Assembly: GCA_003252385.1 (NCBI GenBank)
Contig: QKEH01000114.1
Span: forward strand, 1 to 64,000
DNA length: 64,000 nt
Direction of reading: 5' to 3'
Origin: Bacteroidota bacterium
Lineage (GTDB): Bacteria; Bacteroidota; Bacteroidia; Bacteroidales; UBA10428
How positions within the stretch are numbered: the stretch's first letter is position 1; each line of letters begins with the position of its first letter. The translations under genes and the position numbers were made by a program. The notes beneath the pieces were generated by a model. It did not search any database, had not been told where the DNA came from, and saw only the letters and a program-made list of their open reading frames with translations. This document shows positions 31,666 through 39,320 of this stretch, piece after piece.

Positions 31666-32727
31666 TTAGTTTTTCTTGATCCAGTCGGCCAGCCAGTCGC
31701 CCACTTCCGATGTTTTATAGGCTTTTTCCTTCGAAATATCCTCAGTTACCACTCCGGCAGCCAAAGAGGCATCTACCGCATCGCGAACTTTTTTCGCTTC
31801 ATCCATCAGGTTCAACGACTCCAGCAACATAGCTGCAGAGAGTACAGTAGCCACGGGGTTCGCAATGTTTTTGCCTGCTGCCTGTGGATACGAACCGTGA
31901 ATCGGCTCAAATACCGAGGTATGTATTCCCACCGATGCGGAGGGTAACAGTCCCAACGAACCGGTAATTACACTGGCTTCATCCGATAGAATATCGCCAA
32001 ACATGTTTTCCGTTACCATCACATCAAATTTCTTGGGCCACTGGATCAACTGCATGGCTGCATTGTCCACAAACATGTAATCGGTGGTAATATCCTTATA
32101 ATCGGCTTCCATTTTTTGAGCAGTTTCGCGCCATAAACGCGAAGTAGCCAACACGTTGGCCTTATCCACAATGGTTAAACGTTTGTTGCGCTTGGCGGCA
32201 TACTCGTACGCCAGTTTAATAATCCGCTCAATTTCCTCGGTGGTGTAGGTACAGGTATCGAAAGCTTTTTTCTGATCTTCCGAACGGCCCTTTTCGCCAA
32301 AGTAAATACCCCCGGTAAGTTCCCGAACCACAACCAAATCGGCGCCTTCGACAATGTCCTTGCGCAAGGGGCTTTTATCCAGCAGCGAAGCAAAGGTGGT
32401 AACCGGACGTATATTGGCGTACAAACCCAATGCTTTACGCATGGCCAGGAGCCCTTGTTCGGGACGCACCTTGGCTTTGGGGTCGTTATCGTATTTTGGG
32501 TCGCCGATGGCGCCAAACAGCACAGCATCGGAATTCATACAAATTTCGTGGGTTTCTTTTGGGTAAGGATTGCCCACCTTATCGATGGCGGTTGCCCCAA
32601 CCAAACCAAACTCGTAGTTGAACTGATGCTGGTACTTGGCTGCTATGGCATCCATCACTTTTACGGCCTGATCTACGATCTCTGGCCCAATACCGTCTCC
32701 GGGTAATTTTGCAATTTTAAAAACCAT
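31666..32727 (-). CDS. leuB: 3-isopropylmalate dehydrogenase
   Basis: [55 protein letters not shown]. Confidence 0.97.
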
Positions 32728-32842: not shown

Positions 32843-34366
32843 CTAAACATGATGCGTCCCCTCAACAATATTCAGCATCTTCATGGTAGCAATAATTGCC
32901 GCAACGGTCTGATCCGAATCCAGCCCACGTGTACGGACTTCCTTTTTCCCAATCTGCCAAGTAATAACGGCTTGCACCAGAGCATCGGTTTTACCTCCGG
33001 GAGGAATGCTGACGTGGTAATCCAATAATCGGGGCAAATCGCGTTTAAAGCCTTTATAAATTTTCTTTAGTGCCCGCATAAAGGCATCGTATTGCCCGTC
33101 GCCTACGGAGGTTTCCTCAAACTCTTTGCCGTCAATCATAATACGTAGCGTGGCTACCGGCCGTAATCCTTTGGCAGTGGATAAAGAATAATTGAGTATC
33201 TGAATTTTTTCTTCAATGGCGTTGCTGCGGAGCACATCGGAAATGATGTACGGCAAATCTTCCTGGGTAACCATTTCTTTTTTATCGCCCAGTTCAATTA
33301 TTTTTTTAGTCACCTTCTGCATCGACTCGGCATCGAGTTCAATGCCCAGATCTTCGAGATTTTTGGCAATATTGGCCTTCCCCGATGTTTTGCCCAGGGC
33401 ATAGCTGCGTTTGCGCCCAAAACGCTCGGGCAATAAATCGTTAAAATAGAGATTCTTTTTATTATCGCCATCGGCGTGTATACCACTGGTTTGGGTAAAT
33501 ACATTTTCGCCAATCAGCGGTTTATTCGGGGGAATACGTATTCCGGAGAAACTTTCCACCATTTTACTTACCAGGTTCACCTTCGATTCATCTACTGACA
33601 TTTTGAAACCAAAGTGATCCTTCACCACGGCAATAACACTGGATAGCGGCACATTGCCTGCTCTCTCGCCCAAGCCGTTAACGGTGGTATGCAAACAGCT
33701 AATCCCCGCCTTCAGTGCGGCATACACATTGGCGGTTGCCAGGTCGTAATCGTTATGGGCATGAAAATCAAACATCAGGTCGGGGTAGGTATCCCGCATT
33801 TGTTTGCAAAAGGCATAGGTTTCGTCCGGATTTAAAATTCCCAGGGTATCGGGAAGCATGAACCGGCCAATGGGTTTTTCCTGCAATTTATCGATCATGG
33901 AAAAAACATATTCGGGCGAATTGCGCATACCATTCGACCAGTCTTCGAGATAGACATTCACCTTCACGTCCAGGGACACAGCGTAATCGATCACCTCAAA
34001 AATATCGTCCAGATGCTGTTCGGGCGTTTTGCGCAGCTGGTGGGTAACATGCTGTAAGGATCCCTTGGTAAGCAGGTTAAGCACTTTGCAACCTGCGCCC
34101 AGAATCCAGTCTACCGAAGTCTTCCCGTCCACAAAACCCAATACTTCCACCTTATCGATAAACCCGTGGTCTTTGGCATAGGATGCAATTCGTTTCACGG
34201 CCTGCAACTCGCCCTCCGAAACCCGTGCCGAAGCTACCTCGAGGTAATCCACCTTCAGGTCTTCCAACAGCAATTTGGCCATACTTAACTTTTCGTCGTA
34301 TGTAAAGTTGACCCCCGATGTTTGTTCACCATCGCGTAGCGTGGTATCCATTATAGTGATTTTCAT
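32843..34366 (-). CDS. Second alpha-isopropylmalate/citramalate synthase-type (HMGL + LeuA regulatory domain) protein
   Basis: [53 protein letters not shown]-terminal LeuA-dimer-like domain. Confidence 0.85.
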   Translation of the reverse strand: MKITIMDTTLRDGEQTSGVNFTYDEKLSMAKLLLEDLKVDYLEVASARVSEGELQAVKRIASYAKDHGFIDKVEVLGFVDGKTSVDWILGAGCKVLNLLTKGSLQHVTHQLRKTPEQHLDDIFEVIDYAVSLDVKVNVYLEDWSNGMRNSPEYVFSMIDKLQEKPIGRFMLPDTLGILNPDETYAFCKQMRDTYPDLMFDFHAHNDYDLATANVYAALKAGISCLHTTVNGLGERAGNVPLSSVIAVVKDHFGFKMSVDESKVNLVSKMVESFSGIRIPPNKPLIGENVFTQTSGIHADGDNKKNLYFNDLLPERFGRKRSYALGKTSGKANIAKNLEDLGIELDAESMQKVTKKIIELGDKKEMVTQEDLPYIISDVLRSNAIEEKIQILNYSLSTAKGLRPVATLRIMIDGKEFEETSVGDGQYDAFMRALKKIYKGFKRDLPRLLDYHVSIPPGGKTDALVQAVITWQIGKKEVRTRGLDSDQTVAAIIATMKMLNIVEGTHHV

Positions 34367-34500: not shown

Positions 34501-35097
34501 TTAGTTTACCCGATTGGCTTCAAAAGCCTCAATCTTGTCGCGTATACTCAGCAGGTAATCAATATCGTCGTATCCATTCAGCAAACACTCCTTTTTGTAC
34601 GGATTGATTTCAAAACTCTCCGACTCGTTGCTTGACACCAGCGTAATTTGCTGTTTTTCCAGATTCACTTCCAGTTCGGTTTTGGGATCGACCTGAACGG
34701 CTTTAAAAATTTTTTCCAGAAATGCGGCCGAAACCTGAACCGGAAGAATACCATTGTTCAAAGCATTGTTTTTAAAAATGTCGGCAAAAAAGCTGGACAC
34801 CACCACTTTAAATCCATAGCCATGGATAGCCCATGCAGCATGTTCCCGGCTCGATCCGCTTCCGAAATTTTTACCCCCTACCAGAATGGATCCGGAGTAG
34901 GTTGGGTCGTTTAGAACAAAGCCTTGGATAGGCTGGTTTTGTTTGTTGTAACGCCAGTCGCGAAAAAGATTGTCGCCGAAGCCCTCCTTGCTGGTAGCTT
35001 TCAGAAAGCGGGCGGGGATAATCTGGTCGGTATCCACATTCTCTATAGGCATAGGAATGCAGCTGGAACGCAATGTGGTAAATTTATCTATTGGCAT
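34501..35097 (-). CDS. leuD: 3-isopropylmalate dehydratase small subunit
   Basis: [48 protein letters not shown]. Confidence 0.97.
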
Positions 35098-35127: not shown

Positions 35128-36552
35128 TTATAAGAAATCGCGCGGATCGGTTACTTTTCCGGTTAATGCAGCAGCAGCAGCGGTAAGCGGACTGGCCAGC
35201 AAGGTACGCGACCCGGGGCCCTGACGGCCTTCGAAGTTCCGGTTGGTGGTCGATACCGCATATAAACCTTCGGGCACCTTATCATCGTTCATAGCCAAAC
35301 ACGAGGAGCATCCGGGCTGACGTAATTCAAAACCGGCTTCTTCCAGGATTTTATCCAGACCTTCCTGTTTTGCCTGCTTCTCAACCTGCCCCGATCCGGG
35401 TACAATCCAAACCACCACGTCGTCGGCCTTTTTCTTGCCTTTTACGAAATTGGTAAACGCACGTAAGTCTTCAATACGGCCATTAGTACACGAGCCCAGG
35501 AATACGTAATCCACTTTTTTACCAATCATGGGTGTACCGGCTTCAAAGCCCATATAGGCCAACGATTTAATATAGCTTCCGCGGGCACTCTCTTCGATAG
35601 TTTCCACAGCGGGAATGCTTTGGGTAATGCCCGTGCCCATGCCTGGATTGGTACCATAAGTAATCATGGGCTCAATATCGGCTGCACGGTATTTCAGTTC
35701 CTTGTCAAATACGGCATCGCTGTCGGTTTTTAAGGTTTTCCAATAGGCCAGTTTTTTATCCCATGCATCGCCCTTGGGAGCAAACTCACGTCCTTTGATG
35801 TAGTTAAAAGTCACTTCATCGGGAGCAATATGTCCTCCGCGGGCACCCATTTCAATACTCATGTTGCAAACGGTCATGCGACCTTCCATGGTCAGTCCGG
35901 TAATGGCAGATCCGGCAAATTCCACAAAATATCCGGTAGCTCCGCCTGTGGAAATTTTAGCGATTATATACAGGATAATATCTTTGGCTTCCACTCCCTT
36001 ACCCAAAGTTCCGTCGATGGTAATGCGCATGCGTTTCGGCTTGGGCTGCATGATGCATTGTGAGGCTAAAACCATTTCCACCTCGCTGGTACCGATACCA
36101 AAAGCAACAGCACCAAAAGCACCGTGCGTGGACGTATGCGAATCGCCACAAACAATGGTCATTCCGGGTTGAGTTAAACCCAACTCAGGCCCTACCACAT
36201 GCACCACGCCCTGGTTCGGGTGTCCCAGTCCGTAATGACGGATTCCGTGTTTTGCAGTATTTTCGGCCAGTTTGTTCACCTGCATTCGCGACAATTCGTC
36301 CTTAATTGGCAGGTGCTGGTTTACAGTAGGTACGTTATGATCGGGGGTGGCCACCGAATTTTCAGGGCGGAATGCCTTAATACCTCGTTCGTCCAATCCG
36401 GCAAATGCCTGCGGGCTGGTCACCTCATGAATCAGATGACGATCGATATATACTACACTGGGACCTCCCTCAATTTGTGTAACCACATGAGAGTCCCACA
36501 CCTTATCAAATAATGTCTTTCCCAATTTTCTAAATTTTATACTGTTAAACAA
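35128..36552 (-). CDS. leuC: 3-isopropylmalate dehydratase large subunit
   Basis: [49 protein letters not shown]. Confidence 0.98.
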
Positions 36553-38041
36553 TTTTATTTATGGCATCAATAAAAGCTTCGACCGATGCGGTAATAATAT
36601 CGGTATTTCCGGAGAACCCGTAGTAAAGTTTGCCCCGGTTTTCGATTTGTATGTGCACTTTACCCAAATCATCGGTACCCCGGGTAATGGCTTGTACCAG
36701 AAATTCCTCCAGTCGTACTTTATGCCGAACCAGTTTTTTTACCGCTTTAAAGGCTGCATCGACCGGGCCGTTACCGTCTTCGGTGGCTGTGAATTCTTCA
36801 CCGCCAATATTCAGGGTTACCGTGGCCATGGGTATGGTCGATTTCCCCGAAAGTACCTGAAGGTGTTTCAGTTGAATTTTACCTTGCTCATTGGTTTTAT
36901 TACTGCCCACCAAAAGCTGCAGGTCTTCATCGTTTACGTCCTTCTTCTTATCGGCTACTTCAAGGAACTTTTCGTATACCGCGTTCAGTTCTTCTCCCTC
37001 CAGGCTGTAGCCCAGCAGGCTTAACCGGTGTTTCAGAGCGGCGCGCCCGCTGCGTGCGGTCAGCGAAATGCTCGATTCATTTACACCCACTTCCACCGGA
37101 TCAATGATCTCGTAATTTTCACGATTCTTCAACACTCCGTCCTGATGAATCCCTGATGAATGGGCGAAGGCATTACGCCCTACAATGGCCTTGTTGGGCT
37201 GCACCGGCATGCTCATCAGCGACGATACCAGACGGCTGGTTTTAAAGATCTTCCTGGTGTTGATCCCGGTTTCAATCGGGATATCCTTATGGCTTTTCAG
37301 GGTCATTACTACCTCTTCAAGCGAGGTATTTCCGGCTCTTTCGCCAATTCCGTTTATGGTCACCTCGGCCTGGCGGGCTCCGTTCAGGATTCCTGAAATA
37401 GAATTGGCAGTAGCCATACCCAAGTCGTTATGACAGTGAGTGGAAAGTATTGCCTTATCCACGTTTTTTACGTTATCAATCAAGTACTTAATCTTCTCGC
37501 CAAACTGATGAGGCAGACAGTACCCGGTGGTATCGGGGATATTAACTACGGTTGCACCGGCAGCAATCACGGCTTCCACCACCCGAGCCAGGTATTCGTT
37601 CCCGGTGCGTCCGGCATCTTCGGCATAAAATTCAACGTCTTCCACAAAACGCTTAGCATACTTCACGGCACGCACCGCACGCTCGATAATTTCATCCTCG
37701 TTGGAATTTAACTTATGATGAATGTGGTAATACGAGGTACCTATTCCGGTGTGAATTCGTTTGAATTTGGCATGTTTCAAAGCATCGGCAGCCACCTCAA
37801 TATCCTTTTCCACCGCACGGGTAAGGGCACAAATGGTAGGTTTGCTTACCGCTTTTGAAATCTCCACTACGGAATTAAAATCTCCCGGGCTGGAAATGGG
37901 AAAACCGGCTTCAATAATATCTACGCCGAGTTCCTCGAGCGCCTTGGCCACCTCAATTTTTTCGACTGTGTTCAACTGGCATCCCGGTACCTGCTCGCCA
38001 TCGCGCAGCGTGGTATCGAATATGTATAATTTATCGCTCAT
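36545..38041 (-). CDS. leuA: 2-isopropylmalate synthase
   Basis: [57 protein letters not shown]. Confidence 0.97.
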
Positions 38042-38332
38042 AGTGTTAGATTATTAATTCAGAACTTTACTTTTTAAACTCGTGGTACGTCAACCAACTC
38101 TTTTTATCCCCCCCACGGGGGTAGCAAAGTATCGTGAATTTTGTTCAGTATTTTAGGATATTGTTTCATCAGTCTGTTTTCCTTTTACATTAATGAAGTA
38201 AGTCCAGCTCGTTGTGTTAAACTTATTTCACAAGAATGCTTCCTGGTTCACTATTCACTTGCCCGGGGATTCTGCTGCGAAGCTGTTGGAGGCCTTGCCG
38301 GCAAACAACCCCTTCCCGGCCATCCGGGGGTC

Positions 38333-38373
38333 TAAAAAGAAACGAGGGCTATTCTCGTGAGAACAGCCCTCGT
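38333..38373 (-). terminator. Attenuator terminator upstream of leuA
   Basis: Minus strand ACGAGGGCTGTTCTCACGAGAATAGCCCTCGTTTCTTTTT: 9-bp outer stem, inner TTCTC/GAGAA, U-rich tail. Confidence 0.85.
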
Positions 38374-38394
38374 ATATAATTTATACACACACCA

Positions 38395-38401
38395 TTCTCA
38401 C
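38395..38401 (-). promoter_or_regulatory. Candidate antiterminator segment overlapping leader stop codon
   Basis: Minus GTGAGAA is complementary to TTCTCAC in the 5' arm/loop of the terminator (38357-38363). Confidence 0.65.
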
Positions 38402-38460
38402 CTGTGTATTCGAAGAATACCAAGAAGAATAATGCTGAGTAGTAGACTTTGATAATTCAT
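38398..38460 (-). CDS. Leu/Ile-rich attenuator leader peptide
   Basis: ATG AAT TAT CAA AGT CTA CTA CTC AGC ATT ATT CTT CTT GGT ATT CTT CGA ATA CAC AGG TGA = MNYQSLLLSIILLGILRIHR; 6 Leu + 4 Ile of 20. Confidence 0.8.
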   Translation of the reverse strand: MNYQSLLLSIILLGILRIHR

Positions 38461-38477
38461 AGTTGATTATTGAATCA

Positions 38478-38485
38478 CAAAGATA
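38478..38485 (-). promoter_or_regulatory. Bacteroidota -7 element (TATCTTTG) for the leu leader transcript
   Basis: Minus strand TATATCTTTG, 17 nt upstream of leader ATG. Confidence 0.6.
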
Positions 38486-38576
38486 TAGATTATTATTTTC
38501 TTTTAAAAACATCCTTATAAAAAATTCCTCCCTCGTGGTCTTTTTGTCCGACCACTCCGGTTAGGCACAGGTAAAG

Positions 38577-39320
38577 TTAGTTTTCAAGGGCGGCCATTAC
38601 CTCCTCGGTAAGCTCCAGGTTGTGGTATACATTCTGCACATCATCCAGGTCTTCAAACTCCTCAACCAAATTTAATATCTTCTTCGACTCTTCCACAGTC
38701 AATGCCTTAGTATCGTTCGGAATACGCTGTAGTTGAGCACTCTCCACTTCAACTCCCAATTCTTCCAGTCGCTTTTGTACGCTTCCGAAATCTTCCAGTG
38801 CCGTGGTAATCACAAACATATCGCCTTCTACCTCAAATTCTTCCACTCCGGCATCAATTACCTCGAGCTGAAACTCATCCGGATCGGCACTTCCGGCTTT
38901 GACATTAAAAACTCCCTTACGCTCAAAGAGAAAACTTAATGATCCGTTGGTTCCTAAGCTTCCATTACGCTTGGTGAATACGGAACGAACCTGGCTAACG
39001 GTACGTTGATTGTTATCGGTTAAACATTCGATAAAAATGGCTATCCCATTAGGGCCATATCCCTCAAAAGTAACCTCTTGCAGGTTGTCTCCTTCTTTAT
39101 CGGCCTTATTAATTGCCCGATCCACATTTTCCTTGGGCATGTTAGCGCCCTTCGCATTGTTCATGGCCATGCGCAGGCGCGGATTGGCATCGGGATCGGA
39201 GCCGCCCTCCTTCACCGCAATGGAAATTTCTTTAACAATCCGGGAAAATATTTTACCCCTTTTGGCATCCAATGCCCCTTTCTTCCTCTTAATCGTTGAC
39301 CATTTACTATGTCCTGACAT
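38577..39320 (-). CDS. YebC/PmpR family DNA-binding regulator
   Basis: MSGHSKWSTIKRKKGALDAKRGKIFSRIVKEISIAVKEGG. Confidence 0.96.
   Translation of the reverse strand: MSGHSKWSTIKRKKGALDAKRGKIFSRIVKEISIAVKEGGSDPDANPRLRMAMNNAKGANMPKENVDRAINKADKEGDNLQEVTFEGYGPNGIAIFIECLTDNNQRTVSQVRSVFTKRNGSLGTNGSLSFLFERKGVFNVKAGSADPDEFQLEVIDAGVEEFEVEGDMFVITTALEDFGSVQKRLEELGVEVESAQLQRIPNDTKALTVEESKKILNLVEEFEDLDDVQNVYHNLELTEEVMAALEN

Follow-up and report, generated by a model that had tools for sequence, protein, structure and literature searches.

The window (the whole stretch of Bacteroidota DNA analysed here, 64,000 nucleotides long) carries a leucine biosynthesis operon on its minus strand, in the order leuA-leuC-leuD-gene 4-leuB, with a cimA-like gene in fourth place. 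The first structural gene, leuA (36545..38041), encodes 2-isopropylmalate synthase and scored over the cut-off of TIGR00973 (684 bits); leuC (35128..36552), leuD (34501..35097) and leuB (31666..32727) likewise scored over the cut-offs of TIGR00170, TIGR00171 and TIGR00169, respectively. Gene 4 (32843..34366) encodes a probable (R)-citramalate synthase, which would belong to the isoleucine route. Its best NCBIfam model was the CimA model NF042433, with 664 bits versus 358 for the best LeuA model, a score that does not reach the equivalog cut-off of 950 for this model, which is named for Leptospira. The nearest solved structure was also a citramalate synthase, that of Leptospira (3ble; 394 bits, versus 166 for the best isopropylmalate synthase). 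A search of the 97.6% complete genome with the single threonine deaminase (IlvA) model TIGR01127 found no such enzyme, its three weak matches being ruled out as CysK and two TrpB. Two trpB genes were seen in the genome (G000:C127:16045-16653 and C23:22351-22953; L291 and L292). Because gene 4 is CimA-like and no threonine deaminase was found, the operon probably makes leucine and, from pyruvate, isoleucine.

Leader, antiterminator and terminator upstream of leuA

Before leuA, the minus strand presents a Bacteroidota-type promoter, a leader ORF, an antiterminator segment and an intrinsic terminator, in that order. The -7 element of the promoter, TATCTTTG (38478..38485), is of the Bacteroidota TAnnTTTG type and lies 17 nt from the leader ATG. 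Related leaders have TAnnTTTG within 60 nt 5' of their ATG in 70 of 99 cases (4.8 expected by shuffling), usually at a distance of about 20 nt. In five relatives of the genus (L005, L034, L035, L036 and L286), a palindrome-like element, TGATnnnTATCA, sits just 5' of TAnnTTTG and is a possible operator or promoter part; it was not seen in the window. Further upstream, on the same strand as leuA, lies yebC (38577-39320), and between yebC and the promoter we noted by eye a stem followed by a T-run, given no terminator score in the scan, that could end yebC.

The leader ORF, MNYQSLLLSIILLGILRIHR (38398..38460), runs for 20 codons from an ATG at 38460 to a TGA at 38398. Half of its codons specify leucine or isoleucine, comprising six Leu codons (CTA CTA CTC CTT CTT CTT) and four Ile codons (ATT ATT ATT ATA), and none specifies valine. 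Leu/Ile-rich leaders occupy the same place in relatives, so that a short ORF enriched in codons for the end products, as in known attenuators, is conserved here. The likely reason for a leader with Leu and Ile but no Val codons is that the operon probably makes both amino acids. The CimA-like gene would thus likely account for the Ile codons, a point that the first-pass annotation of this DNA had left unexplained.

Overlapping the leader stop codon is the 5' segment of the antiterminator (segment 2), GTGAGAATGGT (38391..38401), which can pair with segment 3, GCTGTTCTCAC (38357..38367), over 11 bp, G-U included; shuffles of the intervening segment equalled this pairing in about 1% of cases (p ~0.01). 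Segment 3 is common to the antiterminator and to the 5' arm of the intrinsic terminator, a 14-bp hairpin of -23.2 kcal/mol (38342..38373; z -7.2 when folded alone) with a T-rich tail at 38334..38341. The two structures, both using 38357-38367, are mutually exclusive, and the terminator lies between the leader ORF and the first structural gene, as in attenuators. It is the sole terminator-like site that the terminator scan found from 36400 to 38800. The leader fold as a whole has a predicted energy of -47.9 kcal/mol (z -6.5). Folding in the window also yields a possible protector (1:2) hairpin at approximately 38384..38440, which would sequester the antiterminator segment in an untranslated leader.

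Most of this layout had been proposed in the first-pass annotation and was borne out in place: the minus-strand promoter element claimed at 38478-38485 is TATCTTTG at exactly 38485-38478, and the 20-codon leader ORF with six Leu and four Ile codons lies at 38398-38460. The GTGAGAA claimed over the stop codon (38395-38401) reads 38401-38395 on the minus strand, and its complement TTCTCAC is present in the terminator 5' arm at 38363-38357, with a pairing that extends further than first noted. The strong hairpin and U-rich tail assigned to 38333-38373 resolve into a hairpin at 38373-38342 and a tail reaching 38334.

The spacer from the terminator to leuA is 300 nt long in the window and contains a second small ORF, MKQYPKILNKIHDTLLPPWGG (38104-38169, minus strand), that closes with a CCCC/GGGG stem. 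Seven species of the genus (L005, L034, L035, L036, L286, L288 and the window) share an in-frame ORF of the DTLLPxxG type at this position. Its DNA motif occurs once per genome in seven of nine genomes of the genus, and one genome from a sister genus has a single copy. The ORF, which may be coding, has a pS/pN of only approximately 1.1-1.8. That the CCCC/GGGG element is a genome repeat was rejected, as it has one exact copy.

Conservation in Bacteroidales and related leaders across the phylum

LeuA relatives were taken from Bacteroidales and from a genome collection, and 450 nt upstream of each leuA were scanned for the layout, which was called wherever a short Leu/Ile/Val-rich ORF preceded a terminator scoring >4. 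It was present in 57 of 108 Bacteroidales leuA upstream regions (a few of the 108 being copies of one another), compared with 2 of 216 dinucleotide shuffles. The leader, its Leu/Ile codons and the hairpin are hence conserved in relatives, as the attenuator proposed at first pass would have it. In most relatives, leuA starts no more than about 150 nt past the terminator. Many loci are without the layout directly before leuA, and a good number of these have ilvC immediately upstream, in which case the control point may lie further up. Many Marinilabiliales-like genomes (L010, L039-L043, L047, L050-L054 and others) have ilvC directly before leuA; their leu genes are part of an ilv-leu cluster, with no attenuator directly before leuA.

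The 31 leaders of the closest type were aligned (alignment A1), with a leader stop region that typically reads TGAGAATGG and a terminator 5' arm that typically reads GCCATTCTC. Within this alignment, 94% of terminator cells were paired (41-60% in slid controls) and four pairs were changed on both sides. For the antiterminator, 99.3% of cells were paired (36-55% in slid controls), and all changes were of the G-U type. The covariation that the first-pass annotation had suggested looking for therefore holds for the terminator and not for the antiterminator, for which the 31 leaders show no two-sided covariation because segment 3, CCATTCTC in relatives, is nearly invariant, as expected of a strand that has two partners. 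The antiterminator was better than shuffles of the intervening segment (p<0.05) in 29 of the 31 closest-type leaders, and in only 5 of 26 more distant ones.

These 31 leuA leaders, and no others, served to train a covariance model (R1). Searched against its own genome, it returned this leuA leader as the best match (78.6 bits), followed by a match of 52.3 bits just upstream of ilvD and a third of 25.8 bits. The second match is a putative ilvD attenuator (G000:C33:11833-11939, minus strand; locus L115 1501-1607) that lies directly before the gene and has a Val-rich leader, MNRLSVIVVVLTLSVVKAQG. Its antiterminator, AAGAATGG/CCATTCTT, differs from the GAGAATGG/CCATTCTC pairing of leuA leaders by one base pair in which both partners have changed. 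Among 398 genomes of the phylum, the stronger matches of R1 precede ilvD (L126-L128, L131, L136, L138), the branched-chain aminotransferase gene ilvE (L122-L125, L132, L139), aspartokinase genes (L130, L133) and the prephenate dehydratase gene pheA (L134), these neighbours being named by sequence reading with no family search. The ilvE leaders are rich in Ile and Val, those of aspartokinase in Thr and Ile (MTINNTTIITIITTGINFGGR) and that of pheA in Phe and Tyr (MTRLISWNAFYYFYFYSRDRIGNAI). Weak phylum matches, below approximately 40 bits, often resemble plain terminators without a fitting leader. Given the matching leaders before ilvD, ilvE, aspartokinase and pheA, the composition of the predicted peptides fits the operon product, though R1 was trained on leuA leaders alone.

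Ribosome position, proposed mechanism and alternatives

To relate ribosome position to structure, we folded the RNA that a ribosome would leave free, assuming a downstream footprint of 14 nt. With the A-site at codons 1-4 of the window leader, the protector hairpin folds; at codons 5-17, the antiterminator is the minimum-energy fold; from codon 18 through the stop it no longer is, and a simulated ribosome at the stop masks it. Folding both conformers, a check suggested at first pass, thus came out as attenuation predicts. Every one of the six Leu codons falls within codons 5-17, as do three of the four Ile codons (10, 11 and 15). Across relatives, 312 of 331 Leu/Ile codons fall inside the antitermination window versus 220 of the 316 remaining codons (Fisher's test, 4e-17), and the final three or four leader codons are nearly devoid of Leu/Ile. 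Control codons are therefore placed such that a stall would free the antiterminator and arrival at the stop would mask it, as in attenuators and given the assumed 14-nt footprint. The protector hairpin was not conserved, being unseen in most relatives when their leaders were folded.

The sequence elements and their conservation, the covariation of the terminator, the geometry of the leader and its specificity across operons make it very likely that the region is a ribosome-mediated (leader-peptide) transcription attenuator of leuA-leuC-leuD-cimA-leuB that senses how much charged Leu-tRNA and Ile-tRNA is available. The first-pass proposal of Leu/Ile ribosome-mediated attenuation is thereby supported on comparative grounds, by conserved elements, stall-competent codons and the leaders of ilvD, aspartokinase and pheA. 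In the mechanism that we infer, with both Leu-tRNA and Ile-tRNA plentiful, the ribosome would get to the UGA stop and cover GUGAGAAUGGU, the terminator hairpin would form, and RNA polymerase would halt near 38334. If either charged tRNA were scarce, the ribosome would stall at the Leu/Ile codons among codons 6-16 and leave GUGAGAAUGGU free to pair with GCUGUUCUCAC before the 3' arm of the terminator is made, resulting in readthrough into leuA. Sensing of both amino acids is probable because the operon would make both: leucine via LeuABCD, and isoleucine from pyruvate via the presumed activity of the CimA-like enzyme together with LeuCD and LeuB.

The 300-nt distance between terminator and leuA in the window, with a second small ORF therein, would also suit a leader that acts on translation, through uORF stalling or coupling, or on transcript stability, and not on transcription termination. 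We consider this improbable, since the strong terminator with its T-run belongs to the conserved layout and the leuA of most relatives starts within about 150 nt of it. With yebC (38577-39320) located upstream in the same orientation, the hairpin might do no more than end yebC transcripts as an intrinsic terminator, or be an ordinary intergenic terminator, and the Leu/Ile-rich ORF might be a chance frame. Against this, the promoter element sits between yebC and the hairpin, as does the separate stem with T-run (seen by eye and unscored by the terminator scan). Furthermore, leader, antiterminator and terminator recur together before leuA in many relatives, and the same model R1 finds the leaders of ilvD, ilvE, aspartokinase and pheA, leaving very little room for a terminator of that kind.

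It is highly unlikely that the region is instead an RNA that senses a metabolite or tRNA (a riboswitch or T-box), or an attenuator that depends on a protein and not on the ribosome: T-boxes and riboswitches also place competing hairpins before amino acid genes, but Rfam 15 (including T-box, Bacteroid-trp and the curated amino acid leaders) gave no family at gathering score in the window and nothing relevant at a relaxed threshold, where matches were at chance level and included no T-box or riboswitch, and the conserved part is a reading frame with stall-competent Leu/Ile codons and not an aptamer-like core.

Leader isoleucine content, known attenuators and significance

Returning to ribosome-mediated attenuation, the Ile codons of leuA leaders were compared with the pathway wiring of relatives. 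In a first set of non-redundant operons, at least two leader Ile codons were present in all 57 of the operons with cimA and in 5 of 12 without it; among these five, three genomes have cimA elsewhere. We then defined a unit as wired for isoleucine if it contains cimA, or if cimA lies elsewhere and leuC/leuD are in the unit, a class refined after the first results were seen. In a larger set, at least three leader Ile codons were found in 78 of 82 units so wired versus 4 of 14 others. Fisher's test of Ile content against cimA gave a p of 7e-8 when phylogeny was ignored; an independent-pairs test of Ile content against wiring on the LeuA tree was not significant because of too few independent changes (5-6, of which on average 2.3 agree with the expected direction and 0 disagree). 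Counter-examples comprise leaders that keep Ile without an Ile-wired unit (L068, L073, L279, L282), leaders that lack it despite such a unit (L225, L258), and two more (L193, L247), some of them having weak leader calls. On balance, we lean slightly towards the view that Bacteroidales leuA leaders track wiring, with Leu and Ile codons where the unit makes leucine and citramalate-derived isoleucine, and Leu codons only where it makes leucine alone. If so, leader codons would be a readable record of a bacterium's isoleucine route, and such leaders would belong to a large Bacteroidota attenuator family, the members tested being without an Rfam entry.

Leader-peptide attenuators govern the leu, ilv and thr operons of enterobacteria, and multivalent leaders are known (Thr and Ile for thr). 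The leuA leader resembles these in being rich in the regulated amino acids, in its alternative 2:3 and 3:4 hairpins, and in a terminator that precedes the first structural gene. However, it differs from them in phylum, promoter type and sequence, in a protector hairpin that is not conserved, and in coding for Leu and Ile without Val, which matches a leu operon that includes a citramalate synthase-like gene. Vitreschak et al. 2004 reportedly list some attenuators in Bacteroidetes/Chlorobi.

Also within Bacteroidota, leader-peptide attenuators have been noted for amino acid operons of Flavobacterium psychrophilum (PMC9723704), in an account whose section on them gives no leuA case, shared motif or Leu/Ile logic, and sORFs reminiscent of leader peptides have been described in B. 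thetaiotaomicron (PMC7366714). RF01692 (Bacteroid-trp), a curated Bacteroidota cis-regulatory candidate tied to tryptophan genes by its name (PMC2864571), was absent from the window and from the whole genome in a covariance-model search. In S. aureus, as its title has it, a leucine-rich attenuator peptide represses branched-chain amino acid synthesis (PMC5794164); this attenuator, from Firmicutes and described as working together with CodY, is likened here by description. Our literature search, which had subscription papers outside its reach, returned no description of leuA leaders or of a link between Leu/Ile coding and citramalate. On sequence evidence, we thus regard the leuA leader as a real, conserved candidate ribosome-mediated attenuator of a kind already known. 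What is new is this attenuator itself and the motif it has in common with the ilvD leader and its cousins across the phylum, together with the suggestion that Leu and Ile coding follows operon wiring.

Attenuation of amino acid operons was worked out in proteobacteria. Bacteroidota are prominent in the gut, and their translation starts largely without Shine-Dalgarno sequences. In the literature found, attenuation in this phylum is merely mentioned, and the leuA and ilvD leaders and their cousins, Bacteroides included, provide concrete targets that bear on the question of whether the coupling of ribosome and RNA polymerase is close enough for attenuation in Bacteroidota. The Leu and Ile leader may in addition serve as a hint, readable from DNA alone, at a citramalate route to isoleucine.
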